The notes under the pieces: model-generated
The model's input: only the letters and a program-made list of their open reading frames with translations
Database searches by the model: none
What the model was told of the DNA's origin: nothing
Made by a program: the position numbers and the translations under genes
Assembly: GCF_000373365.1 (NCBI RefSeq)
Contig: NZ_KB891230.1
Location: 155,975 to 219,974, forward strand
Source: Parafrankia discariae
Lineage (GTDB): Bacteria > Actinomycetota > Actinomycetes > Frankiales > Frankiaceae
DNA: 64,000 nucleotides
Direction of reading: 5' to 3'
Shown: positions 11,030-19,830 of the stretch, piece after piece
How the letters are laid out: each line of letters begins with the position of its first letter
Position numbering within the stretch: the stretch's first letter is position 1

Positions 11030-12976
11030 TCAGCGGACGTCGTAGAAGACCGTCGTCACGTACTGGTCGAAGTCGTTGACGCGGAGGGTGAAGCGCAGCT
11101 GCCACCGGCCCGGCAGTGGCACGCCCACTCCCTCGGCCACGGCGTGGCCGTCGGTGACCTCCACCAGAGGGACCTCCAGCGGGCCGACGCCCGCCGAGGG
11201 CAGACTCAGCTCACCGCTGGCCTCGACCAGCCGCTGCGGCCGGCCCTGCGGGTCGTAGGTGTAGACGTGCATCGTCTGGGCGCCGGTGCGGGTGGGCGAG
11301 ACGTCGATGTCCACGGTGAGCGGGCCGGCGACGGTCGTCCTCGTGAACGGCGGGGCGTAGGAGTCGCGGCCCGGGATGGTGTTCACCAGGATCGCGGTCA
11401 CCGCCAGGACCACGGCACCGATCAGGACCTCGAACAGCACGCCCCGGCGCAGCCCGGTGAGCGCGATCGAGGTGACCCGCGGCCCCGGTTCGGGGTGGTA
11501 GTGCCGGCGCACCCAACGCCTGGCGAGGAACCCCAGCCCGAGCACGCCGAGGACGAACCAGAGCTTGTAGAGGAGCAGCCGGCCGTAGGTCGTGTCGAAC
11601 AGCGCGCCGAACTCGCCGATCTCCCGCCAGGTCTGGAAGGCTCCGGTCAGGACGATCAGGGCGATCGCGATGGTCGCCGTCGTCGACCAGCGGGGCAGGA
11701 CCCGGGCCAGTTCGACCGCCTGCTCGGGCGGCACCGGCTCGCCCTCGACGCTCGCACCGCCGGTGTCAGTGTCGTTCTCGCCGCCGCTGCCGACACTCGT
11801 GCCACGGCCGCCGACGACAACGGCGGGGACGGCGGCGGCGATGCCCTCGCCCTTCCCGGACCAGCCGAGCAGGCTCAGGCCGAGCACGCACAGCCCGCCC
11901 AGCCAGATCGCCATGGCCGCGATGTGCACGGTCAGGCTGGCCGTCGCCAGCCAGACCATGTCCCCCGCGCTGGCGTGGCCGATCATCGCCATGGTCATCA
12001 CGAGCGCCAGGCCGAGGCCGGCGAGCTCCACGAGTCCCCGGCGGCCGGCCCCGGCCGGGTGGCGGGCGCCGTCATCGCCCGGTTCGGTCAGTTCCGGGTC
12101 GCGCAGCCGGCGCAGGAGCGGAACGGCCAGCAGCAGCGCCAGCACGCGGATCGCCAGGAGCTGGCCGTAACGGCCGTCCAGGGTGGTGGCCAGCGGGTCA
12201 CCGCGGAAGACGCCGGAGATGCCGGACCCGGCCGTGTAGGGGCCCTGGAAGAGAAGCATCCCGACCGCGCCCACGATGCTGAGCAGCCAGCCGGCGATGA
12301 TCAGCCGGGCTGGGCCGGGGCGGCGCGCCCCGGCGGGCCACAGCACGGCCACGAAGAAGGTGGCGCCGATCAGCAGCGCGGCGCCGGCGAACGCGATGAA
12401 CCGCGCCGTGCCCAGGGCCACCCCGACCACCCGCGACCCGCCGCCGCCGGAGGGCAGCGCGGCCGCCGCGCCGGCGTCCGGCGGGCCGCCGACCCCGAAC
12501 GCGAAGGCGCCGCCGACCGGATGGCTGTCGGCCGAGACGACCCGCCAGCTCACCACGTACGTGCCTGGTCCGAGCCCGGAGCGCAGCGCGACGGTCGCCT
12601 GCGACGCCGCCGCGCCGCCGTGCGCGCCGCCCTGGTCTGCGCGGGCGCCGGTGGTGTCCAGGACCCGGATCGAGTCGGACTTGACCGAGACGGACTCGCT
12701 GAACGTCAGGGTCACCTGGGCGGGAGCGGTGTCGAGGGCCGCCCCGCCAACGGGATCGCTGCCGGTGAGCACCGCGTGCGCCGACGCGGGCAGCGCCATG
12801 CCCAGCACGGCGACGGCGGCCAGCGCGCAGACCGCCAGCGCTCTGCGTGCGCCGACATGGCGGCGGGAGGACCCGCCCACGCGACGGGAGGACTCGCCAC
12901 CGTGGCGGCGGGAGGGCTCGCCGGCGCGCCGGCGGCCGGCGCCACGCTCAGAGCCCCGTCGTTCGGATCCGGTCAT
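11030..12976 (-). CDS. CopC-CopD fusion (YcnJ-type copper import protein)
   Basis: 648 residues. An unusually long Arg/Ser/His-rich n-region (1-44, RRH repeats) leads into a signal peptide ending ASA, so the mature protein would start at His67 (HAVLTGSDPVGG). In CopC this terminal His ligates Cu(II). The CopC beta-sandwich (about 67-165; LTFSESVSVKSDSIRVLD, SADSHPVGGAFAFGV) is followed by a multi-pass CopD domain (FIAFAGAALLIGATFFVAVLWP, HIAAMAIWLGGLCVLGLSLLGW). The C-terminal ~110 residues form a further exported domain (TVDIDVSPTRTGAQTMHVYTYD). It is last in a four-gene minus-strand set and 87 bases downstream of the ycnI-like gene, after a strong palindrome. Role: copper acquisition across the membrane. 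Confidence 0.9.
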   Translation of the reverse strand: MTGSERRGSERGAGRRRAGEPSRRHGGESSRRVGGSSRRHVGARRALAVCALAAVAVLGMALPASAHAVLTGSDPVGGAALDTAPAQVTLTFSESVSVKSDSIRVLDTTGARADQGGAHGGAAASQATVALRSGLGPGTYVVSWRVVSADSHPVGGAFAFGVGGPPDAGAAAALPSGGGGSRVVGVALGTARFIAFAGAALLIGATFFVAVLWPAGARRPGPARLIIAGWLLSIVGAVGMLLFQGPYTAGSGISGVFRGDPLATTLDGRYGQLLAIRVLALLLAVPLLRRLRDPELTEPGDDGARHPAGAGRRGLVELAGLGLALVMTMAMIGHASAGDMVWLATASLTVHIAAMAIWLGGLCVLGLSLLGWSGKGEGIAAAVPAVVVGGRGTSVGSGGENDTDTGGASVEGEPVPPEQAVELARVLPRWSTTATIAIALIVLTGAFQTWREIGEFGALFDTTYGRLLLYKLWFVLGVLGLGFLARRWVRRHYHPEPGPRVTSIALTGLRRGVLFEVLIGAVVLAVTAILVNTIPGRDSYAPPFTRTTVAGPLTVDIDVSPTRTGAQTMHVYTYDPQGRPQRLVEASGELSLPSAGVGPLEVPLVEVTDGHAVAEGVGVPLPGRWQLRFTLRVNDFDQYVTTVFYDVR

Positions 12977-13021
12977 GATGTTCCGTTCCCGGTGGTGTTC
13001 CGCCCAGGGTGTACGGCGAGT

Positions 13022-13059
13022 GCGGGGTGCCTCCCACCGGCCGGTGGGAGGCACCCCGC
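13022..13059. terminator. Perfect 38-bp palindrome
   Basis: 19-bp arms, fully complementary, centred between 13040 and 13041 (inner sequence CCACCGG/CCGGTGG). It begins five bases after the stop of the ycnI-like gene and lies before copCD. Likely a terminator or processing hairpin that sets a different expression level for the downstream copCD gene. Confidence 0.75.
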
Positions 13060-13063
13060 GGGG

Positions 13064-13819
13064 TCAGGCCCGCCGGCGGGTCGTGATCAGTGCGAAGGCC
13101 CCGGCGGCCAGCCCGAGGACTCCCAGCACGAGCCCGGTGATCCCGAGCGCGCGCGCCGTGCCGTCCGACGTGGAGTCCGATTCCGTGGCGGCCGCGGCCT
13201 GCTCGGTGCCGGAGCCGGCACCGCTGGCGGTGTCGTCGCCGTCACCGTCGTCGTCGCCGGCCACCGCCGCGGTCAGCGTGACCGTCGGCGCCGGATGCTC
13301 CGGCTCGGCGGCGCCCGCCGCCGCGACGTCGACCCAGCGGACGACCTCGCCGTCCGAGTAGGTCTGCAGGGTCTTGAAGACGACCTGGTCGCCGTTCTCC
13401 GGCAGCGGGCCGGCCGAGACGTTGAAGGTGTCGAACTCGCCCGGCTTGACGCCGCCGCCGTCCTGCGCTGTCCAGGTGACCCGGGTGACGATCTCGCTGA
13501 CCTGGCTGCCGTGCACGGTGAGCGGGGTCGGCGGCGCGCCCTTGGTGACCTTGTACGTCCAGCCGGGCTTGGGCTGGACGGTGACCGACGCGATCGGGTT
13601 GTCGGTCGGGAACTGCACGTCGATCCCGGTGGTGGACGCCGTGTCGCTCTCGGTCGGCACCTTGAACGACAGGGTCGTGTAGCCGCCCGCGGCCGCCTCG
13701 GCCGGAGACACGGTGACATGCGCGGACGCCGGCACGGCGAGCGCGATGGTGCCCGCCGCGGCGGCGAGCGCGCACAGGACCCCACGGCGGAGCCGGGCTG
13801 TGCGGATGGTGCGGGACAT
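13064..13819 (-). CDS. YcnI-type DUF1775 copper-binding protein
   Basis: 251 residues. The signal peptide ends ASA (residues 31-33), leaving mature His34 (HVTVSPAEAAAGGYTTLSFKVPTES), the N-terminal His that in Bacillus YcnI binds Cu(II) with a Glu as a monohistidine brace. The DUF1775 beta-sandwich runs to about 175 and includes the conserved VRWVDV. An acidic Asp/Gly linker and one C-terminal TM helix with an RRRA tail follow, so it stays anchored outside. Start is set by AGGAGGA just before the ATG at 13819. Cotranscription with the CopC-CopD gene matches ycnIJ in Bacillus. Confidence 0.92.
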   Translation of the reverse strand: MSRTIRTARLRRGVLCALAAAAGTIALAVPASAHVTVSPAEAAAGGYTTLSFKVPTESDTASTTGIDVQFPTDNPIASVTVQPKPGWTYKVTKGAPPTPLTVHGSQVSEIVTRVTWTAQDGGGVKPGEFDTFNVSAGPLPENGDQVVFKTLQTYSDGEVVRWVDVAAAGAAEPEHPAPTVTLTAAVAGDDDGDGDDTASGAGSGTEQAAAATESDSTSDGTARALGITGLVLGVLGLAAGAFALITTRRRA

Positions 13820-13998
13820 CGAAGTCCTCCTCGAAGGCCCGTCGGGCCTTCCGTCGGTGATCGGATTTGCTGACCCGAACACCGGGGTCGTCGCGGCACG
13901 GCAGGCGGCACCACCGCGAAACGGCGGACACACCCGCGACGCGGCCTTTCCGGACGCGTGCCTACCGGTCTCCGCCGTGCGCTGTCAGAACGCCGGTC

Positions 13999-14739
13999 TC
14001 AGAACGCCGGTCGCGGACTCGACCCCGGTGGACGGGTCGGCGGCCCGCGCCGCGCGGCGTCGGCTCCGAGCAGGAGGACATGGGCGTGCCAGCGGATCCC
14101 CGGACCGGCCCCGCCGCCGGCGACCCGCCCCGGCATCGAGGTCACCGGCGCGACGGCGACCCGCGGCCGCGCCGCGACGACGAGCGACCCGAGGCGGCCC
14201 GCGGCCCGCACCCGGGCGAGCACGTTGGACGTCGTCCGCGCCACGGTGGTGACGGCGTGTTCCACCGCCACCCGCAGCGCCGCGGTGGACCACAGGCGCC
14301 GCTCGCACCGGTGCAGCAGCACGGCCACGCACGACGCGGCGCACACGTGCCCGGCGACCATCCACGCGCCGGGAAACAGGGAGGCCACCAGGTGGTCGCC
14401 CACCCCCGGCCCCACCACCGACACCGCGGTCGGCGCCGAGCCGGCCCCGCCCGTTCCCGGGGTGTGGTGCGTCGCGAGCACGAAGGCGGTGTGCAGCGCG
14501 GCCTGCGCGGCCAGGACGGCCCCGAGGACCTGCCCCAGCGCGCGCTCCCGGTCGGCCAGGCCGTAGGAGACCCGGGTGAGCAGGCCGGCGCCGGCCGCGA
14601 CCAGCAGCGTGGACGGGCGTTCCCCGCCCACGGCGACGTGCGCCGCGAGCGCCAGGCAGGCCGAGGAGACGCCGAAGACGGCCGCTCTCGCGAGCCGGCC
14701 AGTCCCTGGCGTTCCTGTCACAGTCAGCAAGCCTGCCAC
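13999..14739 (-). CDS. Integral membrane protein of a copper gene set
   Basis: 246 residues; no named family recognised. Four hydrophobic segments: about 18-36 (AAVFGVSSACLALAAHVAV), 44-60, 70-92 (VLGAVLAAQAALHTAFVLAT) and 112-142 (DHLVASLFPGAWMVAGHVCAASCVAVLLH). They contain His and Cys residues placed within or beside helices (AAH, TAF..THH, AGHVCAASC), compatible with metal transfer. The C-terminal ~100 residues are hydrophilic and Arg/Gly/Pro-rich. It lies 37 bases after the upstream gene in the same direction and before the ycnI-like gene, so a helper role in copper handling is inferred from position. Confidence 0.75.
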   Translation of the reverse strand: MAGLLTVTGTPGTGRLARAAVFGVSSACLALAAHVAVGGERPSTLLVAAGAGLLTRVSYGLADRERALGQVLGAVLAAQAALHTAFVLATHHTPGTGGAGSAPTAVSVVGPGVGDHLVASLFPGAWMVAGHVCAASCVAVLLHRCERRLWSTAALRVAVEHAVTTVARTTSNVLARVRAAGRLGSLVVAARPRVAVAPVTSMPGRVAGGGAGPGIRWHAHVLLLGADAARRGPPTRPPGSSPRPAF

Positions 14740-14776
14740 GCGGGGACGTCGTCGGCCTCAAGGACCACATTCCCTG

Positions 14777-15961
14777 TCAGGGGACGGACAGCCCTGATAC
14801 CCCCGGCACGCCCGACACCTCGGACGAATCGGATATCTCGGGCTGGCGCCGCAGGGTCAGCCACGCGGCGAGCCCCAGCCCCACCCCGGCGCCCAGCGTC
14901 ACCGCGGTGAGCACCCGGACGACGGGCACCGGGCCGACCACCGGCGTGCCCGAGCGGACGAACACCCCGAGGTCGGGCAGGCCGCCGAGCACGGCGAGCA
15001 GCAGGCCGGCGCTCACGGCCAGGTAGAGGCCCGTCGGCGAGCGCCGGAGGATGAGGACCGTGCCGGCCAGCGCGCCCGCCCAGACGGCGATCTGCATGGC
15101 GTTGCCCCAGACGAAGGCGTCGAGGCGACCGTCCGCGTTCGCCGCCGCGACCAGGGCGGAGTGCGTCGCGTCGACCGCCGCCAGAGCGGCCAGCGCGGCG
15201 GCGACCGGCCACCGCGCCCGCCGCAGGAGGCCGAGCGCGGCGGTGCCGGCCAGCACCGCGACCGTGGCCGCCACCCACGGCCACGGCGACGGGCCGGGGA
15301 TCCAGTCGAGCGTCCCCGTGTAGACGGCCGGCCGCCCGTCGACCGTGAGCGGGACGGACCAGTCCTCGACGCGGTGCCGCCGGTCCGGTTCCGCGCGCAC
15401 CGCGGGCGGGTCCGCCGACCCCATCCAGTGGACCCGGTGGTCGTGCCAGAAGGCCACGACCTGGCCGCCCCGCGCCGCGGAGACCAGCGCCCACTCCGGC
15501 GGGGCCGCCGGGTCGACCACGTCGGCCGGGCCGGGGTCGTCGCCGGTGCGGCTGGCGTTGAGGTAGGTGGCCGAGGAACGCCGGTTCTCCCACACTCCGC
15601 GGGTGTCGAGGCGTAGGTAGGGTTCCTTTTCGTATCCCTCGACGAGGATGGGGAAGCCCGCGGTGGCCGACAGCCGCACCCGGTTCCCGTTCTCGACGAC
15701 GCTCAGCCGCACACCGGGAACGGCCGGGTCCCCGGTGAGCGTGGTGTGGTAGTTCGTCGGGCCGGCCCCGCCGACGGTGTGCGCGGACGCGGGGCTGGCG
15801 AACGCGACCAGCCACAGCGCGCCGAGCAGGGACGCGAGCAGGGCCGCCCCCGTGCCCCGGGCCGGGGCGGGCACGAGGCGCGCCGGCCGGGAGGTGGCCC
15901 GAGGGGTGGTCCGGGCGCTGACGGTGATCCGGGCACTGACGGTGATCCGGGCGCTGACCAT
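14777..15961 (-). CDS. Exported-domain membrane protein with mature N-terminal His, copper gene set
   Basis: 394 residues. The N-terminus has a tandem repeat (VSARIT, VSARIT, VSARTT) from an 18-bp DNA repeat, then a signal peptide ending ASA with His61 next (HTVGGAGPTNYHTTL). A ~180-residue exported beta-rich domain follows (VRLSVVENGNRVRL, GVWENRRSSATYLNAS, WHDHRVHWMG). Four to five TM helices come from about 225 on, with HS and D residues in AALAAVDATHSALV. I know no characterised member. The mature N-terminal His, shared with its CopC and YcnI neighbours, suggests Cu(II) binding. ATG 15961 was chosen; a GTG at 16015 is possible, and neither has a clear Shine-Dalgarno. Confidence 0.78.
   Translation of the reverse strand: MVSARITVSARITVSARTTPRATSRPARLVPAPARGTGAALLASLLGALWLVAFASPASAHTVGGAGPTNYHTTLTGDPAVPGVRLSVVENGNRVRLSATAGFPILVEGYEKEPYLRLDTRGVWENRRSSATYLNASRTGDDPGPADVVDPAAPPEWALVSAARGGQVVAFWHDHRVHWMGSADPPAVRAEPDRRHRVEDWSVPLTVDGRPAVYTGTLDWIPGPSPWPWVAATVAVLAGTAALGLLRRARWPVAAALAALAAVDATHSALVAAANADGRLDAFVWGNAMQIAVWAGALAGTVLILRRSPTGLYLAVSAGLLLAVLGGLPDLGVFVRSGTPVVGPVPVVRVLTAVTLGAGVGLGLAAWLTLRRQPEISDSSEVSGVPGVSGLSVP
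15905..15958. repeat. 18-bp tandem repeat, three copies
   Basis: Units GGTGATCCGGGCACTGAC and close variants at 15905-15922, 15923-15940 and 15941-15958. They encode the VSARIT repeats at the extreme N-terminus of the minus-strand protein. Copy-number change would stay in frame. Confidence 0.85.
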
Positions 15962-17688: not shown

Positions 17689-17784
17689 CGGGCCGCTGCC
17701 GGCCCGCGCTCGGCGACCTCTACTTTTGGGTGGCCCAGTCCCTGCGCGCCGGGTCACGCACCCGAGATGTTGGTGGAGGTCGCC

Positions 17785-19830
17785 ATGACGGTCAGCGCGT
17801 CCCCGGAGCCCGGGACGACCCCGGCGCGGCCGGCGCATCCCCTCGAACCGCTGTCGGCCGCCGAGATCGGCCGGGCCGCCGCGATCCTGCGGGCCGGCGA
17901 GAACCTCGGGCCGGAGTTTCGTTTCGTTTCCATCGAGCTGAACGAGCCACCAAAGGCCGCCCTCGTGTCACGCGAGGCCGAGCGGGACGCCGACGACGAG
18001 CTGGCCGCGCCGGACCGGCAGGCGTTCTGCGTCCTGCACGAGCGCGGGGCGCGGCTGACCCACGAGGCCGTCGTGTCGCTGTCCGCCGGGACGGTGGTGG
18101 AGATGTACGCCGTCCCCGGCGTGCAGGCGGCGATGATGATGGAGGAGTTCCTGGCCTGCGAGGACGTCGTCCGCGCCGACCCGGGCTGGCAGGCGGCGAT
18201 GCGCCGGCGCGGGGTCACCGACTTCTCGCTGGCGATGATCGACCCGTGGTCCGCGGGCTACACCGGGCGGGAGGACGACCCCGCCCGGCGGCGCATCGCG
18301 CGCCCGGTGACGTTCGTCCGCTCCGGGCCCGGCGAGAACGGCTACGCCCGGCCGGTGGAGGGCCTGCAGGTCGTCGTCGACCTGGAGGCGATGGCCGTCG
18401 TCGAGGTGACCGACCACGGCCAGGGCCCGGACGGCCCGGTGCCGCTGCCGCCGCGCCCCGGGAACTACGCGCCGGCACTGATGACGGCCGACCCGGCGAA
18501 CGTCCCCGCGTTCGACCGGCTGCGCGACGAGCTGCGCCCGCTCGAGGTCACCCAGCCGCGCGGCGCCAGCTTCACCGTGGACGGGTACGCGGTGCGGTGG
18601 CAGAAGTGGGACCTGCGCGTCGGGTTCACCCCGCGGGAGGGCCTCGTCCTGCACCAGGTCGCCTACACCGACCGGGGCCGGCGGCGACCGATCCTGCAGC
18701 GCGCCTCGGTGTCGGAGATGTTCGTCCCGTACGGCGACCCGGCGCCGACGCACCGGGTGAAGAACGTCTTCGACATGGGCGAGTACGGGGTCGGGGTGAC
18801 GGCCAACTCGCTGCGGCTCGGCTGTGACTGCCTCGGCGACATCCGGTACCTCGACGCGGTCGTGAACGACTCCGACGGCAACCCGGTGCCGATCCCGAAC
18901 GCGGTGTGCCTGCACGAGGAGGACACCGGGATCGCCTGGAAGCACACCGACTTCCGGACCGGCCAGGTCGAGGTCCGGCGGATGCGCCGGCTGGTGATCT
19001 CGATGATCTGCACGGTCGGCAACTACGAGTACGGCTACTTCTGGTACCTCTACCTGGACGGCACCATCGAGTTCGAGGTGAAGCTGACCGGGGTGATCTC
19101 CACCGGGGCGGTGCGGCCGGGCGAGTCGCCGTCGCACGGGGTGCTCGTGGCGCCCGGCCTGTACGGGCCGCATCACCAGCACTTCTTCAACGTGCGCCTG
19201 GACCTGGAGCTCGACGGCGGCCCGAACTCGGTGCACGAGATCGACTCGGTGCCCGACCCGATCGGCCCGGACAACCCGACGGGCATCGCCTGGCGGACGC
19301 GGGACACGCCGCTGGACTCGGAGCGCCACGCCCAGCGCAAGGTCGACCCGTCCGTCGCGCGGTTCTGGCGGATCACCAACCCGCGCGTCGAGGGCCCGCT
19401 CGGCCGTCCGGTGGCCTACCGGCTCGTCCCGGGGCACACGGCGCCGCTGCTGGCGCATCCCGACTCGCACCAGGCGGCGCGCGGGCGGTTCGCGTCCCGC
19501 AACCTGTGGGTGACCGCGCACGACGAGCGGGAGCGGTACGCCGCCGGCCGCTACCCGAACCAGAACGCGGGCAACGAGGGCCTGCCGCAGTACGCGGCCG
19601 CGGACCGGCCGGTCGCCGACACCGACATCGTCGTCTGGTACAGCTTCGGGGCGCATCACGTCGTGCGCCCGGAGGACTGGCCGGTGATGCCGGTCAGCCG
19701 GATCGGCTTCGAGCTGCGCCCGGACGGGTTCTTCGACGGCAACCCGGCCCTCGATCTGCCCCCGTCCGAGCCCGCCGGTGCGGCCACGCACGTCGGTGGG
19801 GCCACCCACGGGCCCGATTGTGCCGTTTAG
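17785..19830 (+). CDS. tynA: Copper-containing primary-amine oxidase
   Basis: 681 residues, cytoplasmic (no signal peptide). It oxidises primary amines to aldehydes, releasing ammonia and H2O2. All active-site elements are present: Tyr414 in GNYEYG is the residue that becomes topaquinone, Asp330 in FDMGEYG is the catalytic base (84 residues earlier, as in the Arthrobacter globiformis enzyme), and His464, His466 (HHQHF) and His625 (HHVVRPEDWPVMP) form the copper site. GCDCLGDIRYLD is also conserved. The ATG at 17785 follows GGTGGAGG (17772-17779). The copper uptake set lies 2-6 kb away on the other strand, which fits its copper need but does not prove linkage. Ends at a hairpin. Confidence 0.97.
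   Translation: MTVSASPEPGTTPARPAHPLEPLSAAEIGRAAAILRAGENLGPEFRFVSIELNEPPKAALVSREAERDADDELAAPDRQAFCVLHERGARLTHEAVVSLSAGTVVEMYAVPGVQAAMMMEEFLACEDVVRADPGWQAAMRRRGVTDFSLAMIDPWSAGYTGREDDPARRRIARPVTFVRSGPGENGYARPVEGLQVVVDLEAMAVVEVTDHGQGPDGPVPLPPRPGNYAPALMTADPANVPAFDRLRDELRPLEVTQPRGASFTVDGYAVRWQKWDLRVGFTPREGLVLHQVAYTDRGRRRPILQRASVSEMFVPYGDPAPTHRVKNVFDMGEYGVGVTANSLRLGCDCLGDIRYLDAVVNDSDGNPVPIPNAVCLHEEDTGIAWKHTDFRTGQVEVRRMRRLVISMICTVGNYEYGYFWYLYLDGTIEFEVKLTGVISTGAVRPGESPSHGVLVAPGLYGPHHQHFFNVRLDLELDGGPNSVHEIDSVPDPIGPDNPTGIAWRTRDTPLDSERHAQRKVDPSVARFWRITNPRVEGPLGRPVAYRLVPGHTAPLLAHPDSHQAARGRFASRNLWVTAHDERERYAAGRYPNQNAGNEGLPQYAAADRPVADTDIVVWYSFGAHHVVRPEDWPVMPVSRIGFELRPDGFFDGNPALDLPPSEPAGAATHVGGATHGPDCAV

Follow-up and report, generated by a model that had tools for sequence, protein, structure and literature searches.

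On balance, the membrane protein P0001 of Parafrankia discariae is likely to be an extracytoplasmic, membrane-tethered copper-handling protein that belongs to the gene set of YcnI and the YcnJ-type CopC-CopD fusion. The copper reading has its observed basis in this gene set, in residue conservation, in the genomic neighbourhood and in protein fusions. P0001 is the first of four genes that run leftward on the minus strand of the window, the whole stretch of 64,000 nucleotides that was analysed, and is followed by P0003, YcnI and CopC-CopD. The features of the locus are as follows.

11030-12976, minus strand: CopC-CopD fusion, YcnJ-like, with an ATG start and with mature His1 and Asp84-x-His86 in the CopC domain
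12776-12778, minus strand: His67 codon of CopC-CopD
13064-13819, minus strand: YcnI (DUF1775), with mature His1 and Glu24
13718-13720, minus strand: His34 codon of YcnI
13999-14739, minus strand: P0003, a small membrane protein encoded between the genes for YcnI and P0001
14777-15961, minus strand: third exported protein P0001, 394 residues, with a signal peptide, a His61-led beta ectodomain and five predicted transmembrane helices
15782-15961, minus strand: predicted signal peptide of P0001, residues 1-60, which ends in S-P-A-S-A; the A-x-A is kept in homologues
15779-15781, minus strand: His61 codon (CAC) of P0001, the predicted first residue after cleavage
15284-15781, minus strand: ectodomain of P0001, residues 61-226, modelled by AlphaFold2 with a mean pLDDT of 94.3
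15422-15448, minus strand: W-H-D-H-R-V-H-W-M motif of P0001, residues 172-180, a candidate metal site
14846-15283, minus strand: five predicted transmembrane helices of P0001, residues 227-372, of which the second carries D-A-T-H

A preliminary description of this DNA had reported that A-S-A directly precedes a His in three exported proteins, and a reading of all three genes bears this out: PASA follows a hydrophobic stretch and precedes the predicted mature His in CopC-CopD (His67), YcnI (His34) and P0001 (His61). The three genes and their coordinates were likewise confirmed; the fourth gene, P0003, had been left unmentioned. P0003 is conserved across Frankia-group loci, and weak relatives lie approximately 1 kb from the YcnI gene in several other Actinomycetes (e.g. 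genomes G171, G107, G214 and G023). A copper amine oxidase gene is located on the opposite strand (17767-19830, plus), approximately 1.8 kb from the start of P0001, and a related gene is also found near the third family in the Frankia loci L031-L034. The closest relative of P0001, with 86% identity, belongs to Parafrankia soli.

YcnI and CopC-CopD are ordinary members of known families, and their N-terminal His comes with the family. The Pfam DUF1775 domain (PF07987; E 1.3e-51) begins exactly at residue 34 of YcnI, which is His34, and the mature protein has both the N-terminal His and the Glu ligand, His1 and Glu24 being the counterparts of the copper ligands His27 and Glu50 of Bacillus subtilis YcnI (PMC8424229). 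In CopC-CopD, PF04234 and PF05425 are found on one chain, the Pfam CopC domain begins exactly at residue 67, that is, at His67, and the D-x-H motif (Asp84, His86) accompanies His1. Because the His of these two proteins is given by family, only the third protein is informative on the shared His.

P0001 matches no Pfam family at E values up to 1 and no NCBIfam model, and 30 aligned family members gave only scattered single weak matches to Pfam. The earlier statement that the third protein has no described function was thus upheld; the family is undescribed in the libraries searched, with open-licence full text as the scope of the literature. Its hallmark is GYxxEPYLR...WHDHRxHWM within a predicted beta ectodomain that is usually followed by five helices. 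The start codon of P0001 is uncertain, which leaves the predicted cleavage site unaffected. The full-length model (mean pLDDT 82) places five transmembrane helices behind the ectodomain. When modelled alone, the ectodomain consists mostly of beta strands with short helices; HDHR starts at the end of the strand at residues 107-113 (mature numbering), and the first ten residues are the least certain part (block pLDDT 70). A fold search with full-length P0001 returned matches to helical bundles only, and a Foldseek search of the PDB with the ectodomain gave no confident relative (best Z 5.2, to an unrelated chain), a result that does not show the modelled fold to be new. At the sequence level, the family has no credible match among solved structures, and a profile search of PDB sequences produced only spurious matches (designed trefoils and ribosomal eL39).

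The family was surveyed in 296 actinobacterial genomes drawn roughly evenly, 37 of which contain a match, and in a GTDB-based collection in which the WHDHRxH[WFY]M pattern occurs in 424 stretches, all 424 of which encode relatives. Many loci come from metagenome bins, and genes within the loci were called by codon composition. One contig that carries the family (L110) is filed as Bifidobacterium breve, probably through a binning error. Of 77 non-redundant aligned homologues, 65 have His and 12 have Asp as residue 1 of the mature domain, under a cleavage-site rule that favoured His or Asp; in the raw N-termini, to which this rule had not been applied, His or Asp likewise comes directly after A-x-A. 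Because the loci of the GTDB-based collection were picked by their resemblance to P0001, they over-represent the His type; among the 31 readable members of the 296-genome draw, the ratio is 19 His to 12 Asp. Asp1 members constitute one side of a branch (SH-aLRT 89), which requires a single change, and His1 members are found on both sides of the midpoint root. Residue 1 changes once on the tree, and positions 2-16 change 8-40 times each. In most of the family, selection has thus probably maintained His1, with one replacement. The conservation of the His, on which the preliminary description had staked its case, stands for most of the family, in which His1 is strongly kept (65/77) and lost in one change; it fails in one deep clade (12/77, and 12 of the 31 readable members of the 296-genome draw) and is to that extent only half upheld.

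Both types share His113-Asp114-His115-Arg116-x-His118 (mature numbering), residues that the preliminary description did not list. N66, H113, D114 and R116 are invariant in the 77 mature domains, and Y50, E53, Y55, W112, H115 and H118 are near-invariant. This pattern makes the invariant HDHR-x-H a stronger candidate for the core of the protein than His1. A D/N-x-x-H motif, represented by D-A-T-H in the second transmembrane helix of P0001, is seen in 41 of the 97 His-type members, whereas the 12 Asp-type members all lack it.

The genomic neighbourhood of the family is rich in copper genes. The family has CopC, CopD, YcnI and Sco1 as its commonest neighbours, and 65 of the 73 loci with at least 4.5 kb of flank on both sides hold CopC, CopD, YcnI, Sco1, cupredoxin or DyP. 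The median distance to CopC, which 66 of 107 loci contain, is 2.3 kb. By comparison, a scan with these models over 502 kb of the same genome beyond the window yielded only a single Sco1 gene. Further recurrent neighbours are Sco1 (PF02630), a DsbA-like thioredoxin and MauE; some Micromonosporaceae loci have the cobalt-type transporter genes CbiM, CbiQ and ABC ATPase, which were identified in L125, a locus that shares gene clusters with L075, L079, L082 and L103. DUF1775 is present in 19 of the 37 genomes with the family versus 41 of the 259 without it (odds ratio 5.6, Fisher p = 5e-6, uncorrected for kinship), and 41 of the 60 YcnI-bearing genomes do not contain the third family. The Asp clade adjoins CopC and YcnI-like genes, and its readable neighbours keep the His after the signal peptide (a few rows are unreadable or accidental matches). 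Because these neighbours persist beside Asp1, His1 is favoured rather than obligatory, and the link of the family to copper does not depend on it. In L112-L118, the genes beside Asp-type members encode DUF1775-like proteins that begin differently (HPF[VI]RGGE.PVDSLA), in some loci together with a classical YcnI. Two other exported proteins of copper loci have a predicted N-terminal His, namely L073:5992-6882 (HEGTAI..., with a weak YtkA match) and L123:12514-13302 (HEGRKA...). The earlier suggestion that P0001 is a new N-terminal-His copper binder associated with CopC and YcnI is strengthened in that the family is undescribed, linked to copper genes across Actinomycetota and mostly retains His1, and is weakened by the Asp clade.

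In 13 loci, the open frame of the third family continues into a DyP-type peroxidase, which is located behind the transmembrane helices (e.g. L054:6716-9493, L096:3813-7415 and 11 further loci). The DyP part was identified by PF04261 and PF20628 in a scan of seven proteins and by similarity in the remaining loci. The hosts are Catellatospora, Hamadaea, Longispora, another Micromonosporaceae bin, and Catenulispora or its kin. Ahead of the DyP part, nine of the 13 fusions have a clear Tat-type segment, a twin-arginine stretch (GRRGF... or SRRSF...) with a weakly hydrophobic segment after it; the remaining four gave RR matches within the DyP domain alone. In three Catenulispora-type loci, the same chain extends into a cupredoxin domain, and a cupredoxin-encoding frame is located just downstream in the Micromonosporaceae fusion loci. 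In two Blastococcus loci, DyP is a separate gene nearby. These fusions may represent a new Sec/Tat dual-targeted family. Proteins assembled jointly by Sec and Tat are known, and DyP is not mentioned in the main text of the paper concerned (PMC5449189). Copper trafficking in Streptomyces lividans involves the DyP DtpA together with Sco and ECuC; its authors compare DtpA with EfeB, and DyP is also a partner in iron systems (PMC4736821). Given the DyP fusion and the cupredoxin gene or domain in Micromonosporaceae and Catenulispora, the third protein may work at a redox or delivery step.

We propose that Sec would export the N-terminus of the third protein and that signal peptidase would cut after A-S-A, leaving a free His1. 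In histidine-brace copper proteins, copper is held by the N-terminal amine and imidazole of His1. The amine and imidazole of His1 in the third protein, perhaps together with the HDHR-x-H loop at the beta-strand end, would likewise hold copper outside the membrane. Copper may then be exchanged between this protein, YcnI and the CopC domain, in the way published for Cu(II) between B. subtilis YcnI and the CopC domain of YcnJ (PMC12154828), and the exchanged copper could feed import through CopD or the metallation of exported copper enzymes. YcnJ plays a role in oxidase function (PMC13344008). A bolder version of this proposal, which we regard as doubtful, is that the free N-terminal His and the invariant HDHR-x-H loop form a new histidine-brace-like site that is joined in some genera to a Tat-exported DyP and a cupredoxin, yielding a single polypeptide, targeted by both Sec and Tat, that would capture, oxidise and deliver copper. 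How Actinomycetota take up and deliver copper outside the cytoplasm is poorly defined, and this unnamed family (424 coding stretches that share an invariant motif, with His conserved at the N-terminus and with fusions to DyP) provides a defined and easily tested new component, with the natural Asp1 clade as a ready comparison for the role of the N-terminal His.

The shared A-S-A/His could be a mere coincidence or reflect a preference of signal peptidase, given that A-x-A is its usual cleavage motif. To set a chance baseline, a simple signal-peptide rule requiring Ala at -1 was run over the 375 genes called in 566 kb of this genome. Among the 73 candidate cleavage sites, His occupies +1 in only four, namely those of CopC-CopD, YcnI, P0001 and a spurious site inside protein-kinase-like sequence. 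His at +1 is thus rare among the candidate export sites of this genome, and the absence of another credible exported protein with His at +1, together with the retention of His1 across the third family, renders coincidence very improbable. A more serious possibility, although one that falls short of likely, is that the HDHR-x-H loop alone is the functional site, either binding metal or haem or forming a structural hydrogen-bond network, and that His1 is secondary, as a helper ligand in most lineages or as a historical residue. The retention of HDHR in both His- and Asp-type members and the copper neighbourhood of the Asp clade are consistent with this explanation. However, the single change at residue 1, compared with 8-40 changes at its neighbours, is hard to explain without a function of His1 in the His type.

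The identity of the metal and of the site has also been considered. Another metal is possible because cobalt-type transporter genes are near in some Micromonosporaceae loci, and the third protein might serve iron, cobalt or nickel, with a DyP fusion that resembles EfeB/EfeO iron uptake. The DyP and cupredoxin fusions and the presence of CbiM, CbiQ and an ABC ATPase next to the family in Micromonosporaceae agree with such a role, but the predominance of CopC, CopD, YcnI and Sco1 among the neighbours makes it unlikely. His1 and W-H-x-H are also reminiscent of the CuB site of PmoB/AmoB, in which the spacing is similar (His1 and W104-H105-V-H107 in mature PmoB versus His1 and W112-H113-D-H115 in the third protein). 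The only columns that hhalign aligned are those around WHxH; however, the alignment covers eight columns at a probability of 0.3%, which amounts to no detectable homology to PF04744, and the weak PmoB/AmoB rows of the fold search (Z 3.5-3.9) fall on the C-terminal rather than the N-terminal domain of PmoB and AmoB. A search for PF04744 in the relatives was uninformative, as the control genomes gave no match either. The resemblance of P0001 to the CuB site appears to be a likeness of motif only, and a CuB-like reading of His1 and WHxH is quite improbable. The preferred reading remains a copper-handling partner of YcnI and CopC-CopD.

Among known systems, the anglerases Ang-1 and Ang-2, which carry an N-terminal-His domain on a HupE/UreJ_2 permease, are the nearest published kind, and Ang-2 is actinobacterial (PMC12537917). 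The predicted layout of P0001 is similar, with a signal peptide, a free N-terminal His, a beta domain and several transmembrane helices. Where anglerases have an N-terminal His, the third family has a predicted one that is conserved in the His type and replaced by Asp in one clade; where they have an immunoglobulin-like beta-sandwich, P0001 has a predicted mostly-beta domain for which Foldseek found no confident match. Unlike anglerases, P0001 and the 30 members lack a HupE/UreJ_2 (PF13795) match; the invariant HDHR-x-H, the CopC/CopD/YcnI neighbours, the DyP fusions and the Asp1 subfamily further set the family apart. P0001 is not classified as an anglerase, as it has no permease domain and a different set of conserved residues. 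P0001 resembles YcnI/DUF1775, a mono-histidine brace (PMC8424229), in its predicted N-terminal His after a signal peptide, its membrane anchoring and its gene set, but it differs in its conserved residues and in being polytopic. Assignment to DUF1775 was rejected, with no PF07987 match and no sequence relation detectable by hhalign (probability 0.4%) against the YcnI of the window. With CopC-CopD/YcnJ, it shares an N-terminal-His domain on a polytopic membrane protein and, again, the gene set; P0001 was rejected as a CopC or CopD, with no PF04234 or PF05425 match and no detectable sequence relation. DtpA-Sco-ECuC of Streptomyces and EfeUOB employ DyP, Sco and cupredoxin partners that are also seen with the third family, whereas in some genera here the chain of a polytopic protein led by His runs on into DyP.
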